NCBI RefSeq assembly: GCF_016745425.1
Contig: NZ_JAERVK010000007.1
Span: 62,001-126,000, forward strand
Length of the DNA stretch: 64,000 bases
Source of the DNA: Candidatus Methylomicrobium oryzae
GTDB taxonomy: Bacteria; Pseudomonadota; Gammaproteobacteria; Methylococcales; Methylomonadaceae
Reading direction: 5' to 3'
The translations under genes and the position numbers were made by a program. The notes under the pieces are model-generated. The model saw nothing but the letters and a program-made list of their open reading frames with translations, had not been told where the DNA came from and made no database searches. Shown piece after piece: positions 15,864 to 33,173 of this stretch; positions within the stretch are counted from its first letter, which is position 1, and every line of letters begins with the position of its first letter.

Positions 15864-15960
15864 CCCTTCTTTTTAACAATAACGATCAATAAGCAGCGCT
15901 GCGCTTTTTTTCTGGAGAAATCATTTTGTTGTTAAGAAAAATTCGCTACCAGCGAACTTT

Positions 15961-15990: not shown

Positions 15991-15997
15991 AAAACTG

Positions 15998-16200: not shown

Positions 16201-16215
16201 TAAAAAAAGCGAGGG

Positions 16216-16260: not shown

Positions 16261-16270
16261 AGGAGATTTA

Positions 16271-16489: not shown

Positions 16490-16524
16490 TCTACGCCCCC
16501 CCCTTCACATTTGAGGGTGTAATT

Positions 16525-16839
16525 ATGATTTCTAAAGCTATTAAATTAATTCGTCAATACCATAATCTAAATCAGGCTCAGCTTGCTTCTAAATTATCCA
16601 TTTCGACTTCGTACCTTTCCGAGATAGAATCAGGTAAAAAGGAACCGTCCTTGGATATATTGCAAAAATACGCTGATTTTTTTAAAGTACCTTTATCATC
16701 GTTGGTTGTTTTCTCTGAAACACTTGACGGATCCCACAGTAAGAGTAAAGCACGAGCTTTTCTCTCCAAAAAAATGTTGAAAGTGTTGGAGTGGATATCA
16801 GACAATGATGACATCAAGGAGATCAAAAACACCCCATAG
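16525..16839 (+). CDS. XRE-family HTH protein of the retron operon
   Basis: A 104-aa protein. Residues 5-60 form a lambda-repressor-like helix-turn-helix (IRQYHNLNQAQLASKLSIST, then SYLSEIESGKKEPSLDILQKYADFF). A ~40-residue basic tail follows. A GAGGGTG site precedes the ATG. It overlaps the reverse transcriptase by 35 bases, so the two are coupled. A stand-alone HTH protein next to the RT is, as I recall, the mark of the type VI class in published retron surveys. It may repress the operon or act as an antitoxin to the 72-aa protein; both are inference. Confidence 0.9.
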   Translation: MISKAIKLIRQYHNLNQAQLASKLSISTSYLSEIESGKKEPSLDILQKYADFFKVPLSSLVVFSETLDGSHSKSKARAFLSKKMLKVLEWISDNDDIKEIKNTP

Positions 16840-17818: not shown

Positions 17819-17822
17819 ATTT

Positions 17823-18065
17823 TTAACCGAGCAATTGCGCTCTCTCTTCCTGGCTTAAATGATTGAGCAGGTTTTGGGCGATTTGGGCGGTGGTTTTGGC
17901 CGGCGGGTTGAGGTCGTGCTTGAAGCTCATTATGCAAACGAAGGTTGCCTCGCAGGCCGGGTTGGTGCATTTGCAGTACAGGTCGACGACGGTTTTCGCT
18001 TCGGTTAAGTTGTTGCGGGAAGTGATGACGGCTTTTTGAAGGCAGTGCGGGCATTCGATACGCAT
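17823..18065 (-). CDS. Ogr/Delta-like zinc finger transcription activator
   Basis: An 80-aa protein convergent with the retron. It opens MRIECPHC and has a second cysteine pair in CTNPACEATFV, giving C5-x2-C8-x24-C33-x4-C38. This aligns with P2 Ogr and P4 Delta, which have the C-x2-C-x22-C-x4-C pattern and the same NPxCxATF-type ending. Such proteins activate late promoters of P2-type helper phages. Its presence suggests that the element exploits or responds to a P2-like helper. The stop falls five bases beyond the RT stop. Confidence 0.88.
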   Translation of the reverse strand: MRIECPHCLQKAVITSRNNLTEAKTVVDLYCKCTNPACEATFVCIMSFKHDLNPPAKTTAQIAQNLLNHLSQEERAQLLG

Positions 18066-18390
18066 GAGGATCCTTATCCGGTAAAGTCGCGCTATTATGC
18101 CCTACCGCAAAAAAATGTTGCAGAGAATCATCGGTTTGTTATGATTGCCTTACCGGATAGCTCAACTCGAAGGGAGCGAAAACTGGGCACGTCTTCGTCC
18201 TCGTGGCCAGTTTCCGGTTTTTCCTCATTTTCCCTTTTCTTTTTTACCCTCATAGGCCCCAATACTACTGGCGGGCTTAAAAATCCCTTTGTTATAATCC
18301 CAGACTGACCGGATAGCCCGACGGGGCGATAAGCGGGTATCGTCAACCTGTTTCCGGTTAACCCTTCCTGACGGCTTTCACTTGGACGGA
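18066..18390. promoter_or_regulatory. Regulatory region between ogr-like gene and next operon, with shared GACG-loop motif
   Basis: There is no gene here. A hairpin AAACTGG/CCAGTTT (18180-18186/18207-18213) is followed within a few bases by a run of five T and may be a terminator or small-RNA end. A TATAAT box lies at 18293-18298. Fifteen bases on, TAGCCCGACGGGGCGA (18314-18329) folds as GCCC-GACG-GGGC. The same 16 bases recur at 62984-62999 ahead of another small gene in the second element. Confidence 0.55.
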
Positions 18391-18822
18391 GTGAGAACTT
18401 TGCGTATCCCACGAGAAACACCTTTTGAAGAAATTGATGAACAATTGTACTGGGTAAAGAAACATTACTTTGAGAGCGGCGGCAGCATTGAGCATTTAAT
18501 TAACTTAATCGATAGGGTTGATATTAAGTTAACTCCTAAAACAAGAAGATTCATAGCGGGCGTACTGTCAGGCCAGATCAAAGCTAAAGGCAAAGAGCGT
18601 AAGAAATATTTCCATCATCTAAGAATTTATTCTCTGATTTCCGACTTAATATCTAAAGGTATACCGCTTACCTGTGACGATCGATATACCGCCAAGGCTG
18701 ACTTAAATAAAGCCGGCGCAGCAAGGCAAATTGCCGAAATATGGGGAATAAGCGAAGACGCTGCAATAAAGATTTATCAGAGAATGAAGCCAAAACCTGA
18801 AAGTATAGAAGATTATCTTTAG
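18391..18822 (+). CDS. Hypothetical satellite protein, ~143 aa
   Basis: Function unknown. The protein is mostly helical and charged: FEEIDEQLYWVKKHYFESGGSIEHLINLIDRV, then KLTPKTRRFIAGVLSGQIKAKGKERKK. It ends in a possible HTH-like part (GAARQIAEIWGISEDAAIKIYQRM). The start is uncertain: TTG at 18382, GTG at 18391 or TTG at 18400, the last having GGAG (18388-18391) at good spacing. It lies first in the operon leading to AlpA and replication genes. Confidence 0.65.
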   Translation: MRTLRIPRETPFEEIDEQLYWVKKHYFESGGSIEHLINLIDRVDIKLTPKTRRFIAGVLSGQIKAKGKERKKYFHHLRIYSLISDLISKGIPLTCDDRYTAKADLNKAGAARQIAEIWGISEDAAIKIYQRMKPKPESIEDYL

Positions 18823-18924
18823 GCATTATGGACATTTAATAGGGCTTCGTGTCCATGACAAAATAAAAAGCGCCCAATAGGATAGCCATGCATTTAAACG
18901 AACAGACTCTAAGGAGTTCAACGC

Positions 18925-19182
18925 ATGGCTGTCAATACCGAAAAAACTCAGCAAAAACCGCGCAATAAAATTACCTATACGCCGGCACCGTTACCGGAAG
19001 AAGGCTTTGTTCGATTGCCCTCGGTTTTAGCTGTGCTGGGCATTTCAAAGACCACTTTTCTGGATGGCGTCAAGTCCGGGAAATATCCGGAAGGCAAGCT
19101 GTTATCACCCCGGTGCCGTGTCTATCCGGTCTCGGAAATACGCGCCCTGTTGGCTTCCTTGGAAGCAGAGGTTTCCGCATGA
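18925..19182 (+). CDS. AlpA-family DNA-binding regulator
   Basis: An 85-aa protein with the AlpA/excisionase-type winged helix: FVRLPSVLAVLGISKTTFLDGVKSGKYPEGKLLSPRCRVYPVSEIRALLA. AAGGAG precedes the ATG. In P4-like elements such proteins control integrase expression and excision. It is the expected switch gene here and lies upstream of the small ORFs and primase, all on the same strand. Confidence 0.92.
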   Translation: MAVNTEKTQQKPRNKITYTPAPLPEEGFVRLPSVLAVLGISKTTFLDGVKSGKYPEGKLLSPRCRVYPVSEIRALLASLEAEVSA

Positions 19183-19484
19183 ACCTCTTGACGCCCCTTC
19201 CCGCCAGCGCTATGCTGTCCCCGCTTTCGCAAAAAACGAAAGTCGGGTTTCGCAGCCCGGACAACCCAAGCCTTCAAAGGCCACTATTCAAAGTGGTTTT
19301 TTTGTGTCCATCAAAAATACAGGCGGCCTTACGCCGTTTGTCTTCTGTTATGGTGGCGCGTAATGGGCAGCCCCTCAAAAGGCTGGCCGGTTCTTGGGCC
19401 GGTACTGCGAACCTGTTACGCGTCGCCGCCCAACAATTCGCAGTCGTTGGCGGCGGTTTATCCATATACCCAAGAGAAACCGCT
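19183..19484 (+). other. Leader with Ash/Icd-like overlapping frames
   Basis: No firm gene start lies here, but the frames read like the Ash / 'cell division inhibitor Icd-like' proteins annotated in P4-like satellites. One frame has ARNGQPLKRLAGSWAG followed by AVVGGGLSIYPRETAMA; another has VTRRRPTIRSRWRRFIHIPKR. A hairpin GGCCACT-attcaa-AGTGGTT followed by T residues lies near 19280-19300. It may be a regulatory leader, a coding overlap, or both. Confidence 0.4.
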
Positions 19485-19676
19485 ATGGCTACATACGCCC
19501 CAAGTGCGCCCAAGTTACGCCTTACCCCGCGTCAATCCCTGTTCAACCTTATCCAACGCACCGATCACGGCCAGCAGCTGGTCGGCACCGATTTAACCTT
19601 TACCCAAGTCTCAGGCTTACTGGCCGAATTCCCTTCCCTGATCGTGAAGTTTTCCCGGATGGAGGCCTTGTCATGA
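19485..19676 (+). CDS. Small satellite protein (63 aa)
   Basis: A 63-aa ORF (MATYAPSAPKLRLTPRQSLF...SRMEALS), the likely translated part of a longer in-frame ORF. The ATG at 19485 follows a weak AAGAGAAA element. The stop overlaps the next start (ATGA), indicating coupling. The family is not identified. It resembles short proteins encoded ahead of the primase in P4-like elements. Confidence 0.55.
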   Translation: MATYAPSAPKLRLTPRQSLFNLIQRTDHGQQLVGTDLTFTQVSGLLAEFPSLIVKFSRMEALS

Positions 19677-19990
19677 GCACTCCTAACAACACCGGCAATA
19701 ATACCCCGTCAGTCAGTATGACCGATTTTGCGGTCAAACTGAACAATGAGATAACCGCTGTTACAGGGATTTTTTCGTTACTCATCAGAGACTTTTCTAT
19801 GGGTAAACCTGTATCAAAGGAGACGCTTGAACTTCTTGAAAATCATGCTGAAAAAATTATTCTCGTGTCCAAATCGATCCGCGAGAAAGTCAGTCAAGAG
19901 GAAAACTTTCCGGCGCCCAAAAAAAGGCGGAAGCTCACCCGAAAGCAGGTATTAGCAAAAACTAAAGTGATTACCGGGGGGCTAAAATGA
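19673..19990 (+). CDS. Small helical satellite protein (105 aa)
   Basis: A 105-aa protein with a central helical region (TDFAVKLNNEITAVTGIFSLLI, then SKETLELLENHAEKIILVSKSIREKVSQ) and a basic C-terminus (KKRRKLTRKQVLAKTK). It is preceded by GGAGG and overlaps both neighbours by four bases. Function unknown. The tail suggests nucleic-acid or protein contact. Confidence 0.65.
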   Translation: MSTPNNTGNNTPSVSMTDFAVKLNNEITAVTGIFSLLIRDFSMGKPVSKETLELLENHAEKIILVSKSIREKVSQEENFPAPKKRRKLTRKQVLAKTKVITGGLK

Positions 19991-20763
19991 AAGCTCCGAC
20001 CACCCCCGAAAACAAAACCGCTACCGTGTTCCACCCGGCCGTCTTTTCAGGCCGTAATCCCGGCGCCACCGCGGCCGGCCGCCACAAATTAAAACGCCAA
20101 ACCGCCAGCCGCTTGCCGGTCGCGCTGAAATGCGCCTTGGGCGTGTTCAGCCATGCCGAAATCCAGTTCAAGGCCTGTCAGACCGCTTACGCCCAAGGCG
20201 CGCTAAAAGCGGCCGCTTACGAGAAGCTGCGCGATTTAATTTACCTGCTCTACGACGTGTTGGAATCGGCCCTGTGGGAGCTGGGCATTGAAACCGGGAA
20301 CGCGACCTCTCAAGCCGGTTCCGTCCAGCATCCTTTCGAGGCCGTCAGCGCCGCGTTCCTGTCCCTGTCCGAAGCCGCCGACGCGTGCCGGCAGGCCGAT
20401 AAAACCTGCACGCTGGCCGAGGCCGATCTGCGCGCGCTGTTTATGGCCGCCGAACGCGTCCAGGCCGTTTTTTACGACTTCGAAGACGACGATCAGGACA
20501 CGCGGCCCGATCTCGGACACCGCTTCGGGCTGTTCTCCGACACTCCCGACGCGCTGGGTTTAAGCGAGACCGTGGGTTTTATGAGCCAGAAAGCCGATGC
20601 AGTCCTCACGATGCTGGGCAACGCTTTCGCCGAGGCCGACGCGCCGCGGCTCAACGACGACTCGGTGTATTACGCGCTGATGACGGTCAAGCATGAACTG
20701 GCCGACATCAACAGCGTGGTGAAGGCGTTTCATCAGGCCAGCAAAAAGAACCCGCAGGCGTAA
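19987..20763 (+). CDS. Hypothetical helical satellite protein (258 aa)
   Basis: A GC-rich, alanine-rich protein with no recognised domain. It has a ~40-residue basic, disordered start, then a long helical body (LKAAAYEKLRDLIYLLYDVLESALWELG, AFLSLSEAADACRQADKTC). There is a conserved-looking acidic DFEDDDQDTRPDLGHRFG stretch and SETVGFMSQKADAVLTML. It is coupled to the gene before (ATGA). It could be a structural or regulatory satellite protein; I cannot assign a role. Confidence 0.65.
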   Translation: MKAPTTPENKTATVFHPAVFSGRNPGATAAGRHKLKRQTASRLPVALKCALGVFSHAEIQFKACQTAYAQGALKAAAYEKLRDLIYLLYDVLESALWELGIETGNATSQAGSVQHPFEAVSAAFLSLSEAADACRQADKTCTLAEADLRALFMAAERVQAVFYDFEDDDQDTRPDLGHRFGLFSDTPDALGLSETVGFMSQKADAVLTMLGNAFAEADAPRLNDDSVYYALMTVKHELADINSVVKAFHQASKKNPQA

Positions 20764-20871
20764 CGCCGGCGATCGCTCACTCGAGACGCGCCGGCGCAGG
20801 CCCTGCCTGCCCCGTAAGGGCGCTTGCAGCCCGAACCGGCAGGCGGGCCAACCCGGCAAGGACGACGAAAA

Positions 20872-21438
20872 ATGACGATTTTCGAAACTATTATCACGGC
20901 TTTTGTTGCCGAAATGGCAGATTATGGGGCGTTTATCCAGTCCCCTCTACCCGACGGCAAAACCCATGCCTTCAAAACGGACGGCGATCAGCACGGCCAA
21001 AAAAGCGGGATCTACGCCTTGCGCATCGACAGCAAAACGGCGGCTTCCGGCTACTTTGAAGACCTCATCACCGGCCGGGCGTTCTTCTGGACGCTGTCCG
21101 GAGATCCGGGCGATTTCTCGCCGAAATTGTACAAAGTCGTTATGGCGGCGCGGCAACGCCGCAAACAGCAATTCATTCAGCGGCAGCAACAAGCGGCCGG
21201 CCATGCGCAGCGTATTTGGGCGCGGACTAAACCGATCCACGATCTGCGCCAACATCCCGGTTTAAAGCAAAAATCCCTGTTGATGAAATCGGCCCGCCTT
21301 TACCGAAACGCCTTGGTCCTCCGGATTTTTAACGAGATGGGGCAACTGGTCAATTTGCAATTCATCGACCAGCGCGGCCATCACAGCTTTCTGGCCAACG
21401 GCCGGTTGATCGGTGGCTTTTTACCCCTTCAACGCTGA
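20872..21438 (+). CDS. TOPRIM-primase-like N-terminal fragment / DUF7146-like protein
   Basis: A 188-aa protein matching the part of phage and plasmid primases that joins the zinc-binding and TOPRIM domains: DGDQHGQKSGIYALRID, GYFEDLITGRAFFWTLSG, then AQRIWARTKPIHDLRQHPGLKQKS and LVLRIFNEMGQLVNLQFIDQRGHHSFLANGRLIGG. The zinc finger and the C-terminal TOPRIM acidic motifs are absent, so it is unlikely to prime alone. It lies 15 bases before the large primase-helicase and may assist it, or be a remnant. The ATG at 20872 follows AAGGACGACGAAA. Confidence 0.75.
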   Translation: MTIFETIITAFVAEMADYGAFIQSPLPDGKTHAFKTDGDQHGQKSGIYALRIDSKTAASGYFEDLITGRAFFWTLSGDPGDFSPKLYKVVMAARQRRKQQFIQRQQQAAGHAQRIWARTKPIHDLRQHPGLKQKSLLMKSARLYRNALVLRIFNEMGQLVNLQFIDQRGHHSFLANGRLIGGFLPLQR

Positions 21439-21453
21439 GAGGCAAGCAACGTT

Positions 21454-23874
21454 ATGGATGATTCTCAGTCTGCACGATACAAGAGGGCCGCCGGCCAGGC
21501 GCTAAGCCCCGACAACACCCAAGGCTGGCAGGGGACCGATCTGCTGGCGGCTTGCTGTGCCGCCGGGCTGGCGTTGGTCAAAATCCCGGCCGTCGACGGC
21601 AACCCCACCAAAGCGCCGCGCAATCCGGGCTGGAACAAGCCCAGAACCGCACAAAATCTCGCCGGCTACACCGCTGACCCGGCTGTGCTGAAAAACAGCC
21701 AGAACTGCAATTTCGGGCTCTACCACGGCGCAAGCCAGACGCTGGCCCTGGATCTGGACAATGTCCAGTTGGCCGCCCAGGTCTTCGAGGAGGTCGCGGG
21801 TATGCGCCTTTCGGAATGGCTAAACGCGCCGGACCGGGCGGAGATTAAAAGCCCCAAGCCCAATCGCGGCAAAGTGTTGTTCAAGCTGCCTGAGAGCGCC
21901 GGGCCGGTCGGCCTCAAGCAATTCAAGCAGGGCGGCCAGGTCGTTTTCGAACTGCGCTGCGGAAATTGCCAGGACGTGATCTTCGGCCGGCATCCCGACG
22001 GCGGCGCCTACCAGTTCATCGGCGATCCGGCGGCGATCCCGGCGATTCCGGACGTCTTGCTCGACATGCTTGCCCATTGGGACGCCTGGCTGCCTTGTTT
22101 GGCGTCCGCATTGGGCGCCGCCGATCGGCCGGCCAACGTGTCGCCCAACCCGCCGCGGAACAGCGAAAATTTGCCCGGGTCGCGGGATCCCATCAAAGCG
22201 TTTAACGAATCCAGAAGCGTGGCCTCCGTATTGCTGGAAAACGGCTATCAGCCGGCCGGCGGCAAACGCTTCATCCGGCCGGGCAGTTCGTCGAAAGCGC
22301 CGGCGGCCGTGTTGTTGAGCGATTTCCCCGACGGGCTGGAGCGGGTCTATTCGCACGGCGGCGACGTCTTGAACGACGGCTTTGCGCATGATGCGTTCGA
22401 TTGCTTCCGGCTATTGCAATGCGGCGGCGATTGGGCGGCCGCGCTCGCCTGGAATCCGGACATCACTCGACACAATCAGGCATTGTTCCGCGAGCAAAAA
22501 GCCCAACAGAAAGCGAGCGAGAAAGCCGCCACCCAGCCCAAGCCGAACGCCGGGACCGGTAAAGACGAGGCGACGGAACTGCCGGATGGGACGACCCTCA
22601 GCGAAGAGGACGTTAAGTTTTTGAAGCAAATCGATGCCTCCCACGCGCACGTCTTTTTAGGCGGAAGAAATCTCATTGCCAGCTACAAATTCTGCCAAGT
22701 CCAAGGCGCTACCCTTACGTTTGAAAGCCCGCAAGAATTCAACAAGCGCTTCTATCATCAGCGGCTAGTCGGCATCGGCAAACGCAAAAACGCCGGTAAA
22801 GCCTGGCTGGAATGGCCGTCAAAACGCTATTTCCCCAGCGGGACGGGCTTTTTCCCGGACCCGAGCACTTGCCCGAAAGAGGTGTTCAATCTGTTCCAGG
22901 GCTGGAAAGTCCAGCCGATCGAGGGGGATTGTGGCCCGTACCTCTACCATCTGGAGCATATCATGTGCGCCGGCGACGCGGTGGCGTTCAAGTACGTGGT
23001 GCAATGGCTGGCGCATTTGTTTCAGCGCCCCCAGCAAAAACCCAGCGTGGCCATTTTGCTGAAATCCACCCCAGGCACGGGGAAGGGCACGATGGTTGAG
23101 CCCGTGCTGGAAATACTCGGCGTGCACGGCAACAAGACCAATGGCGCCTATGCGATTGCCGGCCGCTTTAACGGCGTGGTCGCCGGCCGGTTGCTCATTT
23201 TTGCCGATGAGGTGGAGTTAACCGACACACACGTGAACGACAAGCTGAAAGGCATCATTTCCGAGCCGACGGTGAACTTGGAACGAAAGGGCCTGGAGAT
23301 CGAGCCCTTGCCGAACTATTGCCGGCTGATCTTCGCCAGCAACCATGCCAAGGTGCTGAATGCGGATATCCGCGAGCGGCGCTATTTGGTACTGGAGCCG
23401 TCGGATGCGCTGGCCCAGGATACCGAGTATTTCACGGCACTGTGGGCGTGGATCAAAAACGAGGGGGCCGCCAAACTGCTGCATTACCTGCTGCAGGTCG
23501 ATATTTCCGACTTCAACCCGTACAAGTGCCCGCAAACCGAAGCCCTGATTGCCGAGAAAATTGAAAACCTCAGCGGCATTCACCGCTTTTTCTTCACCGA
23601 AATTTTGCGTCCGGAGCCTTTCGGCGGACGGGCCCGCATCACGGCCTCCGAATTGATCGATGAATTTATCGCGTGGAGTGCCGAGGATGGGTCAAAAATT
23701 CACAAGGCGGCCGCACGAAATGTCGTCGGCCGAATGATGGCGAGGATGAATATAGAGGTTAGAGGCAGATCGGATCGCGGCCTGGGCAAGTTTTACGACC
23801 TTCCGGACCGGGCGCAGTTGGTACAGCGGTTCGCCGCTTTGCTCGATATTCCGGAAACGCATCTGGCCGAATAA
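21454..23874 (+). CDS. Primase-polymerase / SF3-type helicase replication protein
   Basis: An 806-aa replication initiator. The N-terminal ~210 residues are a bifunctional primase-polymerase (AEP) domain, with LALDLDNV carrying the metal-binding Asp pair and CQDVIFGRHPDGGAYQFIGDP downstream. A linker follows. The C-terminal DUF5906/D5-like helicase has VAILLKSTPGTGKGTMVEPVLEILG (Walker A), GRLLIFADEVEL (Walker B) and YCRLIFASNHAKVLNADIRERRYLVLE (sensor/arginine finger). The layout matches NrS-1-type or P4-alpha-like initiators. An iteron region lies immediately downstream. It should replicate the excised element. Confidence 0.93.
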   Translation: MDDSQSARYKRAAGQALSPDNTQGWQGTDLLAACCAAGLALVKIPAVDGNPTKAPRNPGWNKPRTAQNLAGYTADPAVLKNSQNCNFGLYHGASQTLALDLDNVQLAAQVFEEVAGMRLSEWLNAPDRAEIKSPKPNRGKVLFKLPESAGPVGLKQFKQGGQVVFELRCGNCQDVIFGRHPDGGAYQFIGDPAAIPAIPDVLLDMLAHWDAWLPCLASALGAADRPANVSPNPPRNSENLPGSRDPIKAFNESRSVASVLLENGYQPAGGKRFIRPGSSSKAPAAVLLSDFPDGLERVYSHGGDVLNDGFAHDAFDCFRLLQCGGDWAAALAWNPDITRHNQALFREQKAQQKASEKAATQPKPNAGTGKDEATELPDGTTLSEEDVKFLKQIDASHAHVFLGGRNLIASYKFCQVQGATLTFESPQEFNKRFYHQRLVGIGKRKNAGKAWLEWPSKRYFPSGTGFFPDPSTCPKEVFNLFQGWKVQPIEGDCGPYLYHLEHIMCAGDAVAFKYVVQWLAHLFQRPQQKPSVAILLKSTPGTGKGTMVEPVLEILGVHGNKTNGAYAIAGRFNGVVAGRLLIFADEVELTDTHVNDKLKGIISEPTVNLERKGLEIEPLPNYCRLIFASNHAKVLNADIRERRYLVLEPSDALAQDTEYFTALWAWIKNEGAAKLLHYLLQVDISDFNPYKCPQTEALIAEKIENLSGIHRFFFTEILRPEPFGGRARITASELIDEFIAWSAEDGSKIHKAAARNVVGRMMARMNIEVRGRSDRGLGKFYDLPDRAQLVQRFAALLDIPETHLAE

Positions 23875-23896
23875 CCCGTTTAACCAGGCTGGGCGG

Positions 23897-24251
23897 TGTA
23901 CCAACTGTACCAGTGAAAATTTATCATTTAGAAACAGTAATTTAAGTGGTACAGCAATATTTATTATAACTGTACCGAGATATACCAACTAAACCAAAGG
24001 CGAATTGAATGCGAGTAAAAAACACCGGGTCATGGCATTTTTGCTGTACCACTCGGCAAATCAACTGTACCCCCCTCAAAGCCGCGGATTTACTGGGTTT
24101 TGGTACAGTGGGACAGTTGGTATGCCAGAAAACGCGTTTTTTACGCCACAATTTTTTCAAAATGCAATATTCAACATAATCAGTATGTTACAAATTCTTA
24201 GAATTTTTCCAAACCGGAAAGATACAAAAAAGCCGATTTGCTGTACCACTT
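23897..24251. repeat. CTGTACCA iteron region, probable origin or operator
   Basis: Eight or more copies of (A/C)TGTACC(A) occur in both orientations. Examples are at 23897, 23905, 23946 (inverted), 23969, 24043, 24063, 24101 (inverted) and 24240, with a degenerate copy near 24111-24122. The region is AT-rich and starts just after the helicase gene. P4-type initiators bind similar short iterons at their origin, so I read this as a candidate replication origin or autoregulatory site. Apparent ORFs across it are not convincing. Confidence 0.7.
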
Positions 24252-24344
24252 TGCCCTGCAGCCGATTTTTTAAAACCGAACGCCTTCGCTTTGAAAAAAA
24301 TGGCCGGGCCTGTGCGCTGGTTGGAGAGGTATCTTTTCAGATTT

Positions 24345-24442
24345 GGAAGGATGGCCCGCCTAGCGTGGTTAGGCGGACGGCATCCGGGCGGCCACAGGTC
24401 GCCGACCCGGCATCTTTAACTCATCGACTGAAAGGAGGCACT
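24345..24442 (+). ncRNA. GC-rich structured segment, possible small RNA or leader
   Basis: CCGCCTA/TAGGCGG encloses a seven-base loop within outer pairs GGATG/CATCC (about 24351-24387). A second GC-rich pairing region (GGGCGGC...GCCGACCC) follows, then an AAGGAGG purine run at 24432-24438 without a convincing ORF after it. No known RNA family was recognised. It may be a leader of the 24506 gene or a regulatory RNA. Confidence 0.4.
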
Positions 24443-24505
24443 CACTGATAAATGACGTATTAATTACCGCAAACCCTATTTTCATTCATTACACGGAGTA
24501 AACCC

Positions 24506-24769
24506 ATGAGCGAACAAATGAACAACGAAATTTTATCGGACTGCCGGAGCAGACTGAATAACATTATGGAAAGACTGGTCGACTTTAGCCAAGACAAAGG
24601 CAATGAAACTTTCGACGATATCAAATTCGAATTTGAGTCGTTGCAATGTGAATTTGAGGATTTTTCCTTCGGCTTGGATCCGCAGGGAAAAGATATGCGG
24701 CAGCTTACCGGCAGGATGGAAAAAACCGGAGAACTCTTCAAAAAGATCGATGAGATGCTCCCTCTCTAA
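24506..24769 (+). CDS. Small acidic helical protein (87 aa)
   Basis: An 87-aa protein of unknown function, predicted mostly helical and acidic (NNIMERLVDFSQDKGNETFDDIKFEFESLQCEFEDFSFGL). A CGGAG element precedes the ATG. A strong terminator follows at 24783. Small acidic proteins in phage satellites often bind host or helper proteins, but there is no direct evidence here. Confidence 0.65.
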   Translation: MSEQMNNEILSDCRSRLNNIMERLVDFSQDKGNETFDDIKFEFESLQCEFEDFSFGLDPQGKDMRQLTGRMEKTGELFKKIDEMLPL

Positions 24770-24782
24770 TCCAACCCATCAA

Positions 24783-24817
24783 GCGGCAGGGCGATCCCCT
24801 GCCGCCTTTTCTTTTTT
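24783..24817 (+). terminator. Intrinsic terminator
   Basis: AGCGGCAGGG and CCCTGCCGC pair around a short loop and are followed by a T-rich tract (CTTTTCTTTTTTC). It separates the 24506 gene from the coiled-coil gene. Confidence 0.8.
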
Positions 24818-24838
24818 CTTTTGAAGGAACATCAATCT

Positions 24839-25468
24839 ATGAACGATTTGCACTTAAAAAAACGCGACTACCGGGAAGCGAAAGGCAACACGGAACACTT
24901 CGACGAAAGGCGGCAAGAAAAGCAGGCCGAAATCGCCGAGCTGGAAGACGATCTGGCCTACGCGCGCGAGCAACTGAAGGAACTGCAAGACCGGCTCGCG
25001 GCGGCGCAGCGGGACATGGCGATCGGCCGGCTGTCGGCCGATGGGTTCATGGAACTGAAGCGGGAGATTGCCGAAAAGGAAACCAAAGTGAAGCTGCTCG
25101 GCGAAGCGATCGCCACCCAAAAAGGCGCGCTGGCGCTCATTAATGTGGACTATCAAAAAAACCGCAGAAACCAGCATGAATGGCTCAAGCGCGCCGCGGC
25201 CGATTTAGGCGAACAGTTTGCCGATGAGGTGGTCGCCTTGGCAAGTGCCCGAATTCAGGACCTGGCGCATGCGGTGGTCGCATCCAGCGGGCGAAGCGGC
25301 GGTTTCTCTCTGAGTGAGCGCCAACGCAATCAGGAATTCGTCTACCAGGCGATCGGCCAAGCGCTGTGCCGGCGGGTATTCCCGAACCAGAAAAGACCGA
25401 TCGATTTCATCCCGGATCTGCTTCAAGCCCGGCAGCATATCGGCGAACTGATCGAGCAACAGGGCTGA
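24839..25468 (+). CDS. Coiled-coil satellite protein (209 aa)
   Basis: A 209-aa protein whose residues ~15-115 form a long charged coiled coil (EKQAEIAELEDDLAYAREQLKELQDRLAAAQRDM...EIAEKETKVKLLGEAIA). A helical C-terminal domain of ~90 residues follows. AAGGAAC precedes the ATG at 24839. There is no family match I can name. By position and helical nature it could be compared with P4 Sid-like scaffold modifiers, but that is speculation. Confidence 0.7.
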   Translation: MNDLHLKKRDYREAKGNTEHFDERRQEKQAEIAELEDDLAYAREQLKELQDRLAAAQRDMAIGRLSADGFMELKREIAEKETKVKLLGEAIATQKGALALINVDYQKNRRNQHEWLKRAAADLGEQFADEVVALASARIQDLAHAVVASSGRSGGFSLSERQRNQEFVYQAIGQALCRRVFPNQKRPIDFIPDLLQARQHIGELIEQQG

Positions 25469-25718
25469 TCGCGGTTTACCCATCCTTTAAAACTGATTGC
25501 GGACTGAACTGCCATCGCATTGGCATTGGCAACAGTTCGCTTTCAGTATTTCTTTAAAAATTAAAGCTGGAAAAGGTTCTTTGAAGTCGATTGGCTCAAA
25601 CCGGCCAAAAGCTGTCGATGAAAGTGTTCAAATGAGTGACCGGTCAATCTCGTAAAACTGCCAGTCATAATGCTGGCAGCAGAGGCACAACTTTGATTCA
25701 TTCTATTTATTTACATTG

Positions 25719-26915
25719 TTATATTTGTTGTCTTTCCCAAACTAGATTAAATAAGGTAGCTAGAGTCTCAGCTTTTTTGAACAATTCATCAAAAGTGACT
25801 ATTTCCACATCCTTCATGCTCGTTCGATATAGCTCAAACGAAGTTCTCTTTTCATCATCATCTAGCTCAGCTTCAGAGTTTCCAATTATCACTAAGCACT
25901 TTGGATTAAATACATCCAATTTTTTACCAGATTCCGAAGTTAAATTTTGATAATTCTTGGCTAATTCACGCCTATAATTGAGCACCTGTAAAATAGAGCC
26001 AGATAGCTCTTTTGTCGGATTATAAACGCCATTTCTATATTTTGTTTTGGCAAGCATCTGAGTTGCTGGTGTTTTAATTTCCACCAGAAGTGCATCATTA
26101 GAAGACTGGTTAGCAAATAGGAAATCTACAAGTTTAGCCTTTGAACCTTCAATATTCATCCCGCCTACGTAAGCCCTGTCTTTGAGAAAAACAACTGGCA
26201 CAGAGAATACCTGTGACAATATGTAAGGATTTTCATTAAAGATTACCTGCCAAAACTCCTCCTTGTTACTGTTGTTATTATTCTTATTTGAATGCCATTT
26301 GCGGATTACTTCTATAATACGACCAGCGGAATGCCCCATCCATACGACTTCTTCAAGACTTTCCTTAAATACGCACATTGATCTGCACCTTTCAGCTGCG
26401 CGCATTGCCCAAGCCGCCTTCCTCGCATCATTTTCCTTGATTGCATCTCTAGCAATATCGTTGAAAAATCCAAAACAATAGGCCCACCACTCCAACCCAT
26501 CCTTTTCTTTTTCAAGTCTAGAGAACAACTCGTTAGCGCCTTCTTCCAAATACAAATCCAGTCCATCAAACAAGCCTGCATCTCTAAGGATTTTTTCGCT
26601 GTATTCCTCATTTGCTTGTATGAAAAGGTCTATGTTATCTGGGTTTTTCTCAAGCTCTTCTATGAATATAAGCTTCGCGAACCATGCCAACCCATGTTTG
26701 GTTAAATAGCCGGTTGACTTTAAGGGATTTGCAGAGACTTTTAAAAAACCGGCAGGGAAGACAAAGCGGTCTCCTTTCTCGACCTTAATCCCATGGCCAT
26801 TATCACCAGGTTCCCTTAGCGTAATTTCCCTATTACAAGCACTACATGTCCTGACCACGTAAGGCATACTTAAATCTTCAATATCTTCTAATCCTATGCA
26901 CTGATTACAGGTCAT
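25719..26915 (-). CDS. sduA: Shedu-type anti-phage nuclease (SduA, DUF4263)
   Basis: A 398-aa protein. The C-terminal ~180 residues match the Shedu (DUF4263) PD-(D/E)xK nuclease. They have EEFWQVIFNENPYILSQVF, KAKLVDFLFAN with D264, LLVEIKTP with E279 and K281, and the conserved ELSGSILQVLNYRREL (Q310). The first 30 residues carry two CxxC pairs (3-6 and 24-27), probably a zinc ribbon; a helical region of ~170 residues follows. Shedu is a known single-gene phage defence. It is AT-rich compared with the satellite backbone and on the opposite strand, as expected for cargo near the attR end. Confidence 0.88.
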   Translation of the reverse strand: MTCNQCIGLEDIEDLSMPYVVRTCSACNREITLREPGDNGHGIKVEKGDRFVFPAGFLKVSANPLKSTGYLTKHGLAWFAKLIFIEELEKNPDNIDLFIQANEEYSEKILRDAGLFDGLDLYLEEGANELFSRLEKEKDGLEWWAYCFGFFNDIARDAIKENDARKAAWAMRAAERCRSMCVFKESLEEVVWMGHSAGRIIEVIRKWHSNKNNNNSNKEEFWQVIFNENPYILSQVFSVPVVFLKDRAYVGGMNIEGSKAKLVDFLFANQSSNDALLVEIKTPATQMLAKTKYRNGVYNPTKELSGSILQVLNYRRELAKNYQNLTSESGKKLDVFNPKCLVIIGNSEAELDDDEKRTSFELYRTSMKDVEIVTFDELFKKAETLATLFNLVWERQQI

Positions 26916-26963
26916 ATTAATACTCTTCGAAGACTACTTGGAAAGCAAACGTAGAGCTAACAG

Positions 26964-27260
26964 TTATTGACACCACTGCCGCTCGCAAGGAATACCATCT
27001 TTATTACCATCCATTTTAGTGCCAGGACAGTTGTTTATAAAAAATGTTGCTTCCTCGCACGAAGTCATTTGAGAGCAATGGGTTCTACCATCACACTTAA
27101 ATTGAGAATTGTTTGATGGGATATCAGACTCTGAACTGGCAACATAATCAGTTGTTGTTTCCGATGTATCAAATAGCAATTCTTGTTGATGGGTTCGGTA
27201 TTTTTGGTTGCTATACCAACCCAGCCCTAAAACAATGAGTATTATGATAATTCTATTCAT
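26964..27260 (-). CDS. Membrane-anchored Excalibur-domain protein
   Basis: A 98-aa protein starting MNRIIIILIVLGLGWYSNQ, one membrane segment or uncleaved signal. It ends in an Excalibur calcium-binding motif: CDGRTHCSQMTSCEEATFFINNC, then DGNKDGIPCERQWC. The DxNxDGxxC loop matches the EF-hand-like family, and the cysteines should pair outside the cytoplasm. The ATG at 27260 is favoured because the membrane segment then begins the protein. It lies 48 bases downstream of the Shedu gene on the same strand; a functional link is unproved. Confidence 0.82.
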   Translation of the reverse strand: MNRIIIILIVLGLGWYSNQKYRTHQQELLFDTSETTTDYVASSESDIPSNNSQFKCDGRTHCSQMTSCEEATFFINNCPGTKMDGNKDGIPCERQWCQ

Positions 27261-27311
27261 ACGCCGCTCTCTCTTGCTTGATATTGGCTCTAACGTTAAG
27301 TAAACACGCAT

Positions 27312-27960
27312 TTAGGTGTATAACGCCACTCTGACAATTTGTTAAACTGAATGCTACGGTATTTAATTGTCGATAGCAATCTCTACTACTAACGAAAAAC
27401 ACCCCTCCTAAACAAGGGACCGCATACGGACTTTGAACAGACGTTCAATCAGTAAGTCGTGAGAGACCGAAAAGGGTCGAACTCGGCCTGTCAATGATTG
27501 ATCAATTGTTAAGCCATCGGATAAAGCCCAAGGTTTACTCTCCATCACACCAAACAGCTTAAGACGCCGGCAACACGACCAAATTCACTCCTCCTCGCCC
27601 GCGCGACTTCCGCTAAAAAATACCGCCGCCATCTACTCCCGCCACGAACAAGCCGCTCTTTCATTATATAAGCCTTTGTAATTGTAGGCTATTTTCTAAA
27701 TTTCAATACTGAACAAACGGCCGCTTTGGATGAATACCGCGGGGTGTTTGCCAGTAAATGAATTCTGTTTTTGTGCAGCCGTATTCCTCAGCTCATAAGC
27801 TGAGCCTTTGTTTTATAAGACTTTTTTAAAAACCATCGAATAAATTCGAAATTCACCACCTTTCAGACAACAACTTATAAACCACTGTTTTTTCTAAATA
27901 AATAATCTTAGGGATGGCAATCTAATGGCAATTTATGGCGGTTTCTGGCAGCGTCTCTGT
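27312..27960. other. Gene-free AT-rich stretch in the satellite
   Basis: About 650 bases without a credible ORF on either strand. It probably holds the promoter for the 26964/25719 genes at its left end. I see no clear repeats here. It leads into the right inverted arm at 27972. Confidence 0.6.
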
Positions 27961-27971
27961 TAATGATGAAT

Positions 27972-28395
27972 GGCTGGACTGGTGGAACATTGGGAACATC
28001 GGGAACGTGCTTCGGAAGTTTTTCTCCCAGAAAAAAATTTTTCCCGGATGAACACCTCCCGATCGGGCGCCGCTTTACTCCCCCTCAACCGCCAAACAAG
28101 GCGAACACGGGAACATTGGGAACATTGGGAACGTGATTCAGAAGTTTTTTCCCTGAAATAAAAATTTTGCCCGGCGACCGCCGGCGATCGGGATCCGCTG
28201 GACTCGCTCAGGGCCGCCAAAAAGGGAGTGCGCAGCGCCGGCAGCGAGCGCGATCGCCCAAACGGCGAAGCCGGGAACATTGGGAACATCGGGAACGTGA
28301 AAAAAAAGTTTTTCTTCCGGAAAAAAAATTTTCCGCCAAGCCGCCGGGTAATCTTATCTCCGGGATTTTTCTTTTTCTGGCTTCAAAAAATGCGG
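27972..28395. repeat. Right arm of ~425-bp inverted repeat with iteron clusters
   Basis: This is the inverted counterpart of 15441-15863. Iteron clusters, read as GGGAACAT(C/T), lie at 27982-28009, 28108-28135 and 28272-28299, each ending GGGAACGTG. A stray unit lies at 28402-28416. Long shared blocks between clusters (for example the GGCGCCGCTTTACTCCCC and GGCCGCCAAAAAGGGAGTGC segments) show common ancestry. Together the arms bracket almost the whole element except the integrase. Confidence 0.88.
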
Positions 28396-28465
28396 TTTTT
28401 ATTTCCCGATGTTCCTTGACCTTCTTTGAATCATCCCTTAAAATAGCCCCTCTTTTGCTGAGGCA

Positions 28466-28485
28466 GGGGTAACTTTTGGGGTAAC
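28466..28485 (+). promoter_or_regulatory. Integrase arm-type repeats, right end
   Basis: Two direct GGGGTAAC copies (28466-28473, 28478-28485) about 65 bases inside attR match those beside attL. They support the element boundaries and act as probable integrase binding sites. Confidence 0.7.
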
Positions 28486-28547
28486 TCGAAAGTCCTATTT
28501 CTCTGAAACTCAGCAATTTAAAGACTTTCAAAGGATGTTGCGGTAGT

Positions 28548-28561
28548 GGTCGCAGCCTCCA
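28548..28561 (+). other. attR: right 14-bp attachment repeat
   Basis: An exact copy of GGTCGCAGCCTCCA, without the remaining tRNA-Cys sequence. It marks the right end of the element, 13 bases before the second tRNA-Gly. Confidence 0.88.
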
Positions 28562-28825: not shown

Positions 28826-31045
28826 TTATTGGGATTTTTCCGCATTTTTCCGGAGCTCCGCAGTATCCTGCAGTTTGAGACGGGTCTGCTCCGGCAAGCC
28901 GGCCAAGCCTGCGCAGGGTTTCCGTACCTCAAGCGCTTTGAGCAGGGCCGCCGCCAGTCCGAAATCCGGATTATCCTCCGTCGAGTTGTTGAAAGCCCGC
29001 CTCGCGATGCCGGTTGCAATTGCCGGATCCGAACAAGCCAGGTCGATCAGTTTAGGGTGCAGCACTTTGGTGCGATAAACATCCAGCTGCGCCGGACTAT
29101 TGTATTTGCATCCCAACAAGACGCGGTGATCGCTGTAACAATTTGTCCGGCTGGCCGCTTTGCCCGGCGACAAACCGGTGCCGACATTCCTCATCCGTTT
29201 CTGCAGGGCACTGAATTTTTCATCATCGAGTAACGGTTTCAGCATCTCTTCCAGGCTGCGCTGTTGCTGTGCATCCCTCTCCAGCGAGACATGGTCGGCG
29301 ATAAAGATGCCGTCGAGATTGGCGGCAGACCAATCGCTCCCCTGCAGTTGCGTTTCCCGCAGCTCCGCCCCCTGCAGATCGGCCAAAACCAGGTCTACGC
29401 CCTGCAGTTCCGCGTAAACCAGATCCGCGCCTTGCAAATTCGCCTTGCGCAGCGTAGCGCCCTGCAGTTTCGCGCCTCTCAGGTCGGCGCCCTGCAGTTT
29501 TGCCCCGCGCAGATCCACGCCCTGCAGGTTCGCTCCGCGCAGGTCCGCACTCTGCAGGCTTGTCCAACTCAGGTCGGCTCCCTGGAGATCGGCGCCCCGC
29601 AGGTCCGCGCCCTGCAGATCCGCTTCGACCAGAACCGCGCTTTGTAGTTGCGTGCCTCCCAGGATCGCCCCCTGCAGCTGCGTCTTGTCCCAGCCGGCTA
29701 CGCCCTGGAGCTTTGCTCTCAGCAGCACCGCGCCCTGCAGCTGGACATGCCGAATGTCCGCCTTGGGTAATTGGGCTCCCTGCAAATTGGCGAAGCGCAG
29801 ATCGCGCTTTTGCAGGTTAAGGCCGTCGAACTCCTTGAAGGCTGCATCGCGGATTGCCTTGTTCGGGTCCGTTGCACGCGTCAGCAGGGACAAAGAGACT
29901 TCTTTCGGTACCAGGCGTCTTTCTATCAGATTCAGATTGCGCGAAAAAAAGCTCAAGTCGAACCACGCACAGGGCCCCAGCATCACCTGAAGAATCGAAG
30001 CTTCGGTTTTTTCGGCCTGTTCCAGCGAAGTGCAGGATATGGCCCCCTGTTTATGCACCGCGACGCTCAGCCAGGTTTCGGGCACTTTCCGGATCAGCCA
30101 GTCTTCGAAATACTCGGGCTCCTGCTCCGGAGAGCCGTTTCCAGGATCGCTGCTCGCCGGGCTGTAATAGGCTTGGACGGTCATCCTGCCGGGTATCACG
30201 GCAACCAGGCTCAACAAGACCACCAGCGGCACCGACACCATCAGAATGATCATTCCCTTGGGTTCGGTGCCGGTTTGCTGAACCGGCCGCAGGGCGACTT
30301 CGCGCAGATGCCGGTTCGGCCAGCGCCGCTGGATCGCCCGGACCAGCCGGTTCCATCCCAGTTCGCACAAATAGTGGAGCGAGGCCGGCCAATACCCGAA
30401 CAGCTTGAAGGCGAAGTTTTGCCACCATTCCCCTGCCCGGTCCTGCGGCGACGCAATCAGCGGCCAGAGCGCGATCAGCATGACAGCGTCGACCCAGACC
30501 GCGAGCCGCTGGGACCAGCTGATCGCCTCGTCGTGAAACGGCAGAAAACGGATTTGCGCGGCCAACAGCATGAATAAAGGCAAGGCGATGATCGTAATGC
30601 CGACGATCAGGGACAGCAGCCAGCGGATCAGCCAGACATTGGACCTCCCGACGATTAAATGCGTAAAAGGAAAGATGAACAGGCGGTCGCGGATTTGCTG
30701 CCCGGCCGAAGTATTCGGCAAATCGCGGTCCAGATTCCAGAGCTTGCAGGAAAGCAGCTCCAGCTGCATCAGCAGATTGAAATGCAGCAGCACGACCATC
30801 CACGGCGCGAACGAATAAAAAGCCGTCAGCGGCAATTCCACATCCAGAATCGGCAGCTTGACCGGACTGATCCGGAGCAGATCCTCGTGCGTGGTCCCCC
30901 AGACGATCACGCCGAGATAAGCGGCGAACGCGATGAACGCGACATGCAGCGCCGCCACCGTCTGCGAAGCGGAATTGGCCGAGTCCAGCAGTTTCTCTAT
31001 GTGCGGAGAATTTTCGGGGCTGGGAGGCAATGCAGGGCTGGTCAT
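28826..31045 (-). CDS. Multi-pass membrane protein with pentapeptide-repeat domain
   Basis: A 739-aa protein. The first ~300 residues contain about six membrane segments (VAFIAFAAYLGVIVWG, AFYSFAPWMVVLLHFNLL, WLLSLIVGITIIALPLFMLLAA, MIILMVSVPLVVLLSLVAVIP and others). Residues ~410-590 are A(D/N)LQG pentapeptide repeats (GADLRGADLQGADLSWTSLQSADLRGANLQ), forming a right-handed quadrilateral helix. An ~110-residue tail with three cysteines follows. The repeats lie on the cytosolic or periplasmic face next to the membrane domain. Function unknown. It stands alone after the tRNA-Gly terminator. Confidence 0.88.
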   Translation of the reverse strand: MTSPALPPSPENSPHIEKLLDSANSASQTVAALHVAFIAFAAYLGVIVWGTTHEDLLRISPVKLPILDVELPLTAFYSFAPWMVVLLHFNLLMQLELLSCKLWNLDRDLPNTSAGQQIRDRLFIFPFTHLIVGRSNVWLIRWLLSLIVGITIIALPLFMLLAAQIRFLPFHDEAISWSQRLAVWVDAVMLIALWPLIASPQDRAGEWWQNFAFKLFGYWPASLHYLCELGWNRLVRAIQRRWPNRHLREVALRPVQQTGTEPKGMIILMVSVPLVVLLSLVAVIPGRMTVQAYYSPASSDPGNGSPEQEPEYFEDWLIRKVPETWLSVAVHKQGAISCTSLEQAEKTEASILQVMLGPCAWFDLSFFSRNLNLIERRLVPKEVSLSLLTRATDPNKAIRDAAFKEFDGLNLQKRDLRFANLQGAQLPKADIRHVQLQGAVLLRAKLQGVAGWDKTQLQGAILGGTQLQSAVLVEADLQGADLRGADLQGADLSWTSLQSADLRGANLQGVDLRGAKLQGADLRGAKLQGATLRKANLQGADLVYAELQGVDLVLADLQGAELRETQLQGSDWSAANLDGIFIADHVSLERDAQQQRSLEEMLKPLLDDEKFSALQKRMRNVGTGLSPGKAASRTNCYSDHRVLLGCKYNSPAQLDVYRTKVLHPKLIDLACSDPAIATGIARRAFNNSTEDNPDFGLAAALLKALEVRKPCAGLAGLPEQTRLKLQDTAELRKNAEKSQ

Positions 31046-31127: not shown

Positions 31128-33173
31128 CTATGTTACCGGAGGCACGACGACTCGTGAACAGACGGTGCCGATTTCGCGGTAAACGGCTTCGGGCTTCGCT
31201 TCATAACGGCGGGAAAAATGAAACGGCACCAATTGTTTGACGTCGGCCCGGGTCGCAATCTCGCCGCAGGCCCTCGCGGTCAAATGGCCGGTCCGGCGCG
31301 CCTGCTCGACATCGTCCTCAAGAAAGGAGGCCTCGCAGAACAGAAAGTCGGCCTTGCGCGCCAAACGGCTCAGCGCCTCGCGATTGGCCGGCGTGTCGGC
31401 CAGATCGGTGGCATAGACCAGTTTCTCGCCGGGCGCAACGGTCAACAGGCGCTCTGCCAGTTCGTTCGCCGGTCGGCAGCTGTCATCGGGCAAACGGATC
31501 GCTGCTTCAGTAGCGCCTGCTGCGATCAGCCGCTTCAACTCGTTGAGCCAGGGGCCGGACTTAAATCCCCAGGAGGCGACCGCCTGCTTGTCGACATTGA
31601 ATTTGGCCTTGCTTTCGAACGCATAAGCCTGCACCGGCGTGCCGTGGTCCAGCGTGGCCGTGCGAACGCTGAACAGCGGTTCGTCCACAATCAGCCCTTC
31701 GGAAACGGGCAAGTCGGGAAGCTCCGCGCAATCCCGGCAGCCTGCCTGAATCCGGGCTCGCCGCAGCCGATCGCAATGGATTTCCGCAACCTCGAAGCGC
31801 GGCCCGGTATCGCCGATGCGGTCCCAGAGAATGCCGTCGACCATGCCTTTGATATGGCCGATCAAGCCCGGCGGCCCGAAAAGCCGGCAACTCGGAAAAT
31901 TCCCGAAACGGGAACGCAACAGCCACAGGAAGCCGCCGATATGATCGATATGGGCGTGGCTGATGAACACATCGCTGACTTGATGGACGGTCCGGGTGGG
32001 CAATCGGCCCGATTCCCCCAGATCGAACAGCAGGCTGCGCTGTTGCTGTTGCATCCGAAGATGCAGCAACGGGTCGCCGAAGACCCCGTTGATCAGCGTG
32101 GCATACAGGCCGCGCAATTTGACTGCCGGCCGCGGTCCACCGCCGTAATCGGGCGTCGGATACGGCATCGCGTCCGGCGGCGGCAAAAATTGCAGGTTGC
32201 CCGAACCGAACGGCGCCGCGCTGACGAGCAATCCGTTCTTATCGCTATGGGCATCGCGCACCAGCAAGGTTCCGGAAATCGCAGCCGGCATAGGCAACCG
32301 GATTCGAAGCTCCTTCTCCTTCAGCGCGATGATCTCGCCAAAGCCGACCGTGCGGCCGTTTTCGATAAAAGCACACTGGCGCCCCGCCCACACTTCCGGC
32401 ACATCCGTCGGGGGAGGCGTGCCGGTCAGTCCCAATTCGTCGAGACGGACGTTGATCTCTTCGGCGGTAGAAAGATAAGCTCGCCACAGTCCGGTTCTCT
32501 TGTGCGTACGGCTCTTTTTACCGGGATAGCGGGCTTCCGGATGCGCATGAACCGGCAAAAGATGGATGCCGAGCGCCCCCAGCTCATCAATCAAAGTCGG
32601 CGCTTTCGAGCGGCGGTTCAGCATCAGTACCGTATCGATGCCCAGAAGCTCGACCATCCCGCTCAGCAATTCCGCGCCTGCAATGCCCCGGCTTACGCCG
32701 GGAGCATCGATCAGCATCAGGCCCGGCGGAGCCTCTTGGATCAACCTGCGCACCGCCGCCAACAGAGGCAGGCGAAAACGGCCCGCATCCAGCGTACAGA
32801 GCGCTTCGAAAGCCAATACCTGCCAGCCTGATTCCCGCCACTTCCCCAGGGATACGGTGCCCGGCAAACCGAAGCCGGGCGATCCGGGATCAGCAGTGAC
32901 GGTGAAGCTGTCCAGCCCTCTTCCGGTCAGTTCGCGCGCCAGTTCGGCAGTCAAGGTGGACTTGCCGATTCCGGTCTCGCCATACAATAAAACTCTTTTC
33001 CCGCCGGCTAGCAGTCGTTCGGCAAGGTTGGCAGGCGAATAAGACAACCAGGGAATAGGCACGGGAAATCCCACGAAAGAAAAAGAAATCTGGAAACCAT
33101 AGCATTCACTGTGTGAATTGGACTCGCCTGGGAATCGAACGTGCAAGAAGGTATCCGATGCTGATCGATGCAA
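31128..33173 (-). CDS. Fusion of Clp1/Nol9-like polynucleotide kinase and RNase Z-like nuclease
   Basis: A 681-aa two-domain protein. The N-terminal part is a Clp1/Grc3/NOL9-type P-loop kinase: GETGIGKST (65-73), TADPGSPGFGLPGTVSLG (93-110, the metal/GQ-like motif) and LMLIDAPGV (Walker B), then a beta-rich module. The C-terminal part is a metallo-beta-lactamase of the RNase Z type with HAHIDHIGG (406-414), YATDLADT, FCEASF and HLTARACGEIA. It could phosphorylate and cut RNA ends in one protein. The true start may be downstream, for example GTG at 33062, since no ribosome binding site is clear at 33173. Neighbours give no further clue. Confidence 0.85.
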   Translation of the reverse strand: MHRSASDTFLHVRFPGESNSHSECYGFQISFSFVGFPVPIPWLSYSPANLAERLLAGGKRVLLYGETGIGKSTLTAELARELTGRGLDSFTVTADPGSPGFGLPGTVSLGKWRESGWQVLAFEALCTLDAGRFRLPLLAAVRRLIQEAPPGLMLIDAPGVSRGIAGAELLSGMVELLGIDTVLMLNRRSKAPTLIDELGALGIHLLPVHAHPEARYPGKKSRTHKRTGLWRAYLSTAEEINVRLDELGLTGTPPPTDVPEVWAGRQCAFIENGRTVGFGEIIALKEKELRIRLPMPAAISGTLLVRDAHSDKNGLLVSAAPFGSGNLQFLPPPDAMPYPTPDYGGGPRPAVKLRGLYATLINGVFGDPLLHLRMQQQQRSLLFDLGESGRLPTRTVHQVSDVFISHAHIDHIGGFLWLLRSRFGNFPSCRLFGPPGLIGHIKGMVDGILWDRIGDTGPRFEVAEIHCDRLRRARIQAGCRDCAELPDLPVSEGLIVDEPLFSVRTATLDHGTPVQAYAFESKAKFNVDKQAVASWGFKSGPWLNELKRLIAAGATEAAIRLPDDSCRPANELAERLLTVAPGEKLVYATDLADTPANREALSRLARKADFLFCEASFLEDDVEQARRTGHLTARACGEIATRADVKQLVPFHFSRRYEAKPEAVYREIGTVCSRVVVPPVT

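Follow-up and report, generated by a model that had tools for sequence, protein, structure and literature searches.

The fusion gene described here lies in the window, the whole 64,000-nucleotide stretch of DNA that was analysed, where positions 31128-33173 of the minus strand form one intact frame of 681 codons counted from a TTG.

31128..33173, minus strand: whole fusion gene (TTG listed as start; GTG at 33074 or 33062 likelier)

Profile searches of the two halves, as proposed in an earlier sequence-only reading of the locus that had called this a kinase-nuclease fusion, identify an N-terminal CLP1_P domain followed in the same frame by a C-terminal Lactamase_B_2 domain (Pfam), the latter half also matching PRK02126, and the predicted arrangement is retained in many families. 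Most orthologues align an ATG near residues 34-38 and orthologue conservation begins only at about residue 40, so that the true start is probably the GTG at 33074 or 33062; the N-terminal-most residues of the window protein find no counterpart in the orthologues. The aligned set of fusions (n = 29) consists of the window protein and 28 others, 44-73% identical to it, and all 29 match both CLP1_P and Lactamase_B_2 (Pfam, E ≤ 0.001). Among named relatives, M. luteus, M. marinus and two Methylobacter sp. share 67-73% identity with the window protein, which places the source genome near Methylobacter. The frame of one fusion, from G535, runs to 1060 aa, its 408 extra N-terminal residues having no Pfam match and being taken as open frame 5′ of the start. 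A search of the window's own genome with the fusion protein (E ≤ 0.001) returned a single match, the protein itself. Both active sites are conserved, with the P-loop Lys, one Walker B Asp, two lid Arg and every RNase Z metal ligand invariant across the 29 fusions. Retention of the entire architecture in many families excludes chance or artefact, and it is confirmed that this methane-oxidising bacterium encodes a single protein uniting an RNase Z-like metallo-beta-lactamase (MBL) half with a half of the Clp1/Grc3 type, RNA-end kinases known best from humans, yeast and archaea.

No conserved gene neighbourhood was seen across 24 fusion loci; two protein families turn up repeatedly, in 5 and 4 loci and at no fixed position, and other shared neighbours occur in 2-3 loci each; the simple gene caller used for this survey overlooked the fusion itself in L114 and L116. 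In the window, positions 28829-31045 of the same strand encode a 739-aa protein with a pentapeptide-repeat region, a neighbour that the other fusion loci surveyed do not share. Further away, an integrative element (14047-28548) lies between tRNA-Cys and a tRNA-Gly; it is missing from the sister genome G094, where its flanks are nearly contiguous, and carries the following genes.

14202-15413: tyrosine integrase
16805-17815: type VI-like retron reverse transcriptase
21454-23871: Prim-Pol/DUF5906 protein
25722-26915, minus strand: Shedu SduA protein

The Clp1/Grc3-type half

The N-terminal half comprises the P-loop domain with its motifs and a C-terminal domain of its own.

32469..32981, minus strand: CLP1_P P-loop kinase domain, residues 65-235 (Pfam; matched in all 29 fusions)
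32955..32981, minus strand: Walker A GETGIGKST, residues 65-73 (G65, G68, G70 and K71 invariant in the 29 fusions)
32859..32891, minus strand: DPGSPGFGLPG, residues 95-105, at the Clp1 DxDxGQ site (D95, P96 and G97 invariant)
32697..32708, minus strand: DAPG, residues 156-159, at the Clp1 NTxG clasp site (D156, P158 and G159 invariant)
32484..32510, minus strand: lid-like segment, residues 222-230 (R222, R226, T227 and W230 invariant)
32241..32456, minus strand: C-terminal domain resembling that of Clp1, residues about 240-311 (from the alignment with stand-alone Clp1, whose C-terminal portion it matches)

The CLP1_P match scores 51.3 bits (cut-off 26.6) and takes in model positions 1-187 of 188. 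Comparison of the fusion profile with that of stand-alone bacterial Clp1 gives a probability of 98.9 and an E of 1.6e-17, the 254 aligned columns taking in the C-terminal domain. When the 29 fusions were searched as a profile against the PDB, C. elegans Clp1 was matched across the entire P-loop domain; the total scores of Midasin chains are higher, but come from 38-residue stretches at Walker A, where the remaining P-loop proteins of the 60 matches listed also align for the most part. The profile of stand-alone Clp1 finds Clp1, NOL9 and GRC3 in the PDB and nothing else (E ≤ 0.01). AlphaFold models, made with five close sequences as input, are too poor to interpret (pLDDT 49.8 for the full length, 54.8 for the N-terminal half); used for ranking only, the weak N-half model places Clp1/Grc3 entries at all of Foldseek ranks 1-18, with TM 0.40 or less. 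The grouping first read from the sequence is therefore upheld by the full-domain CLP1_P match, by profile-profile and PDB searches and by Foldseek, which group this half with Clp1/Grc3 and not with unrelated P-loop GTPases.

Like the Clp1/Nol9/Grc3 kinases, including the bacterial Ts-Clp1, the fusion possesses a full-length P-loop domain, lid arginines and a C-terminal domain, while it differs from them in altered Walker B and clasp motifs and in the attached MBL nuclease. Its Walker A conforms to the GxxGxGKS/T of these kinases and the lid arginines R222 and R226 are invariant. At Walker B, for which we take DxDxGQ to be the definition in Clp1/Grc3 kinases, the fusions read xADPGS, retaining the second D and losing the Q, whose position is S in 23 of the 29. 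Five stand-alone bacterial Clp1 proteins align D[AT]D[VI]GQKD[IL]GPP at this site. Of the two stretches that the sequence-only reading had quoted as signatures of the group, GETGIGKST thus stands, whereas DPGSPGFGLPG is present but is not the textbook Clp1 motif. The clasp (NTxG/TxGW) is also changed, to DAPG in the window protein and DxPG throughout the 29 fusions; the clasp NT and the Walker B Q, both found in all five aligned stand-alone proteins, are missing from the fused kinase. These replacements are themselves conserved, which indicates a site under selection, perhaps with altered chemistry. Since the Walker B and clasp signatures are changed, we class the N-terminal half as a diverged Clp1-group homologue with a predicted kinase function, rather than as a proven kinase, and the same two alterations make kinase activity the weakest link of the function proposed below.

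The altered motifs could also mean that the Clp1 half has given up RNA phosphorylation and serves the nuclease as a switch or loading module powered by NTP. The change from DxDxGQ to an xADPGS-like sequence and from NTxG to DxPG throughout the 29 fusions would suit such a module, DxPG presumably resembling the switch motif of MeaB/ParA-type NTPases, and weak MeaB matches are found in 12 of the 29. Yet K71, D95, R222 and R226 are invariant, and the MeaB match in the window protein spans residues 59-102 alone as against 65-235 for CLP1_P; we consider this explanation rather unlikely.

The RNase Z-like half

31155..32108, minus strand: RNase Z-like metallo-beta-lactamase half, PRK02126-like, residues 356-673 (profile matches)
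31941..31958, minus strand: HAHIDH metal-binding motif, residues 406-411 (alignment)
31644..31646, minus strand: metal ligand H510 (alignment)
31533..31556, minus strand: GPWLNELK, residues 540-547, at the site of the RNase Z flexible-arm GP motif (alignment)
31404..31406, minus strand: bridging metal ligand D590 (alignment)
31278..31289, minus strand: GHLT, residues 629-632, at the site of the RNase Z HST loop, with H630 (alignment)
31203..31220, minus strand: HFSRRY, residues 652-657, with ligand H652 (alignment)

The C-terminal half scores 55.4 bits against Lactamase_B_2 (Pfam; cut-off 27) and 281 bits, over residues 356-673 and nearly the full model, against PRK02126 'ribonuclease Z' (NCBIfam NF002558), whose cut-off is 315. 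A second fusion, L104, also falls under that cut-off (288 bits), while the three stand-alone relatives tested all exceed it (424-464 bits). In the tree described below the fusion is likewise separated from the stand-alone proteins, and its MBL half appears to form a group related to PRK02126 rather than a member of it. Against the RNase Z equivalog TIGR02651 it reaches 108 of the 293 bits needed; judged by this score, the MBL half is not RNase Z proper. It nevertheless resembles RNase Z/ELAC1 in its active site. Aligned to chains 1y44 and 2cbn, which we take to be B. subtilis and E. coli RNase Z, it has in place the metal ligands, the GP segment (the 'flexible arm', as we understand the term) and the HST- and HFSRRY-like motifs. 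The two-metal site, with ligand identities that we assume for RNase Z, is complete in the window protein, and H406, H408, D410, H411, H510, D590, H630 and H652 are invariant in the 29 fusions; the HAHIDH motif and RNase Z-like ending noticed earlier are thus part of a full set of ligands, where gaps on full alignment would have told against the assignment. The N-terminal motif and the PxKxRN loop, presumably features of RNase Z, are not recognisable by eye in the MBL half.

The conserved ligands and the GP and HST-like motifs are what would be expected if the protein served tRNA or stable-RNA processing, with the MBL half cutting the 3′ trailers of precursors and the kinase tagging 5′-OH by-products, as a formal counterpart of Las1-Grc3. 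In Grc3-Las1, too, a Clp1-type kinase is coupled to an RNase; the nuclease of the fusion is of an unrelated fold and sits in one chain rather than two, and the likeness is one of analogy only. All 29 fusion genomes are without an RNase Z match over the TIGR02651 cut-off, which would agree with a processing role, but such matches are equally missing from 21 genomes of the window's family without the fusion (the 20 listed without a match in the order survey and G094, a part of the family's genomes), so that the fusion is not replacing a lost RNase Z there, and many of the 50 genomes hold weaker RNase Z-like matches of 35-64 bits. Given also that the three tRNA genes in the window all encode CCA, that the gene is deleted in G094 and that the N-terminal motif and PxKxRN loop were not seen by eye, a processing role is unlikely.

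It is far more improbable that the MBL half hydrolyses a small cyclic-nucleotide or oligonucleotide signal instead of RNA, as a weak match to NF041851, a cyclic-nucleotide-degrading phosphodiesterase (40 bits; cut-off 400), might indicate: the PRK02126 and RNase Z profiles score far better, the GP segment of RNase Z is present, and the attached Clp1-type domain and the association with RtcB described below point elsewhere. A role in a defence system was rejected, the sole PADLOC match being mad8 at 16 bits.

Distribution and origin of the fusion

The distribution survey that the sequence-only reading had suggested found the full-length fusion in 14/369 genomes of the class, from 13 families (best three candidates per genome scored); two further genomes have it interrupted by contig ends, giving 16 fusion genomes in the class counts. 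In the order the full fusion is present in 11/201 genomes, 10 of them in the window's family (best five candidates per genome scored). Stand-alone genes in the class were surveyed with the best eight candidates per genome, and with all these limits second copies or weak cases may escape. A Clp1 match (E ≤ 1e-6) was found in at least 3 of 398 genomes sampled from the phylum, an undercount since the window's own genome was missed at this threshold; all three are fusions, two of them from another class.

In a tree of MBL halves, 31 fusion rows lie on one side of a branch and 30 stand-alone PRK02126-type rows on the other, with branch support of 100/100 and presence in 100% of 200 bootstrap trees. 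L071, which lacks Clp1, was counted as stand-alone, and L059 and L060, which are cut by contig ends, were labelled as fusions by hand. A single fusion branch in an unrooted tree fits one fusion event, without proving it. The fusions from the other class, L124 169-2115 and L126 169-2115 (genomes G610 and G697), nest among those of the class, with some forks poorly supported, and this placement suggests horizontal transfer. Searches for records covering 80% of the query returned none among 72,556 plasmids and none among 50,697 phages; viral contigs gave two short MBL matches. The sister genome G094 has lost the fusion by deletion: two scraps matching residues 302-329 and 616-667 remain (L132 7068-7384), adjoining the retained pentapeptide gene, which makes the fusion dispensable in at least one lineage.

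Separate genes for the two halves are also found. A possible precursor of the fusion is suggested by G371, in which about 80 nt separate the end of a Clp1 gene from a PRK02126 gene that follows it in the same orientation; this Clp1 has both DxDxGQ and NTxG. Within the class sample, stand-alone PRK02126 occurs in 3/4 genomes with stand-alone Clp1 and in 14/348 others (p = 4e-4), two of the three genomes with both belonging to one genus. The remaining Clp1 genome, G531, has a completeness of 82% and a weak MBL match (54 bits), and was retained in this count as a Clp1 genome without MBL. One family (f6) has PRK02126 in 4/5 genomes with Clp1 and in 5/5 without, so it adds no support for the link. 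Most genomes with stand-alone PRK02126 have no Clp1 (14/17 in the class and 14/18 in the order, G003 being counted in both), and the nuclease therefore probably has its own role, to which the kinase was added.

We found no description of a Clp1-MBL fusion in titles and abstract openings of the open-access papers listed, nor any paper there with the term PRK02126; the architecture may stand uncommented in domain databases. One bacterial Clp1, that of Thermus, phosphorylates RNA 5′ ends, and a 2019 survey places Clp1 in 0.9% of complete bacterial genomes (PMC6777427). The Discussion and two Results sections of that paper propose no bacterial role for Clp1, and the words lactamase, RNase Z and fusion do not appear in its main text (PMC6777427).

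Co-occurrence with long RtcB and a predicted role at RNA ends

A new observation of this analysis is that PRK02126-type genes, fused or not, go with long but not with short RtcB. Long RtcB (≥ 540 bits; short about 390-450 bits, the gap having been chosen after the scores were seen) is present in 25/33 carriers of PRK02126-type genes against 46/334 non-carriers in the class sample (p = 1e-13, a count that ignores kinship among genomes that are not independent), whereas short RtcB is no more linked to carriers (4/33) than to non-carriers (37/334). These class counts leave out G262, for its contig-edge fragment, and G531, for its weak MBL match. The association extends to fusion genomes (11/16) and stand-alone PRK02126 genomes (14/17), and the carriers with long RtcB span 21 of 26 families, one contig-split gene being counted. 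In the window's family long RtcB accompanies the fusion in 10/10 genomes against 3/21 without it, or by genus 5/5 against 1/9, and across the 50 genomes searched any RtcB was found in 27/29 fusion genomes and 6/21 genomes of that family without the fusion. Conversely, 5 of the 16 class fusion genomes have no long RtcB, two of these matching no RtcB at all, and G094 has lost the fusion and retained long RtcB. No neighbourhood shared by the fusion and RtcB was seen (24 fusion loci, 20 long-RtcB loci), so the association is one of presence and absence.

The fusion probably rewrites the ends of broken RNA. With slightly less than even confidence, we propose a two-headed RNA-end enzyme, a Clp1-type 5′-OH kinase joined to an RNase Z-like phosphodiesterase/nuclease and working beside RtcB. 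The N-terminal half, with its own C-terminal domain, would be a Clp1-family 5′-OH polynucleotide kinase, and the C-terminal half an RNase Z-like two-metal phosphodiesterase/nuclease generating 3′-OH ends. At a single RNA break, both heads together would convert 5′-OH and 2′,3′-cyclic (or 3′-) phosphate ends, such as metal-independent RNases and ribotoxins leave, into 5′-P and 3′-OH, and would divert the RNA from re-joining to maturation, decay or re-tailing. As the 5′-OH and 2′,3′-cyclic or 3′-P ends are the substrates of RtcB, the enzyme would act beside it. RNase Z proper yields 5′-P/3′-OH ends, which need no kinase, and this counts against such end conversion. The RNase Z relative ELAC1 reportedly repairs cleaved tRNAs and acts on 2′,3′-cyclic-phosphate ends. 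The bacterial Pnkp1-Rnl-Hen1 complex, like the proposed enzyme, contains a kinase. That complex repairs ribotoxin-cleaved RNA (PMC4411300), but the domains of the fusion differ, and the 5′-P/3′-OH RNA ligase PF09414, over its cut-off in just 4/29 fusion genomes (2/21 without the fusion), is mostly missing, so that heal-and-seal repair is not supported and is less likely. The broader suggestion of a part in RNA repair, made when the locus was first read, gains support from the long-RtcB association.

RtcB ligates 2′,3′-cyclic-P or 3′-P ends to 5′-OH ends and is activated by archease (PMC3973293). In animals, 5′ phosphorylation by CLP1 takes away the RTCB substrate, in what is discussed as competition with RTCB; CNP does likewise at the other end by removing 2′,3′>P, and CLP1 and CNP, as separate proteins, are proposed to remove both RtcB substrates (PMC13247085). 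It is conceivable, though somewhat doubtful, that in Gammaproteobacteria archease-type RtcB has a so far unrecognised partner in the PRK02126-type MBLs, and that the Clp1-PRK02126 fusion counteracts RtcB in one chain, phosphorylating the 5′-OH and cleaving the phosphodiester of the 2′,3′-phosphate and so stripping both RtcB substrates; if so, it would decide whether broken RNA is re-joined or goes to maturation or decay. The fusion, the G371 adjacency and the modest co-occurrence connect bacterial Clp1 with a single nuclease family, which is in turn associated with long RtcB. These links would give one protein definite substrates and a partner, and would place the competition between 5′ phosphorylation and RtcB ligation in a bacterium.

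Long RtcB is regularly accompanied by archease, which lies on the same strand within 500 bp in all 20 loci examined (18 from fusion genomes and two from genomes of the window's family without the fusion); the next most frequent shared neighbour is one further protein family, present in 9 of the 20. The window's genome itself encodes two RtcB proteins, a short one (G000 C2:25986-27116) and a long one (G000 C10, L172) with an archease, the latter confirmed by Pfam.
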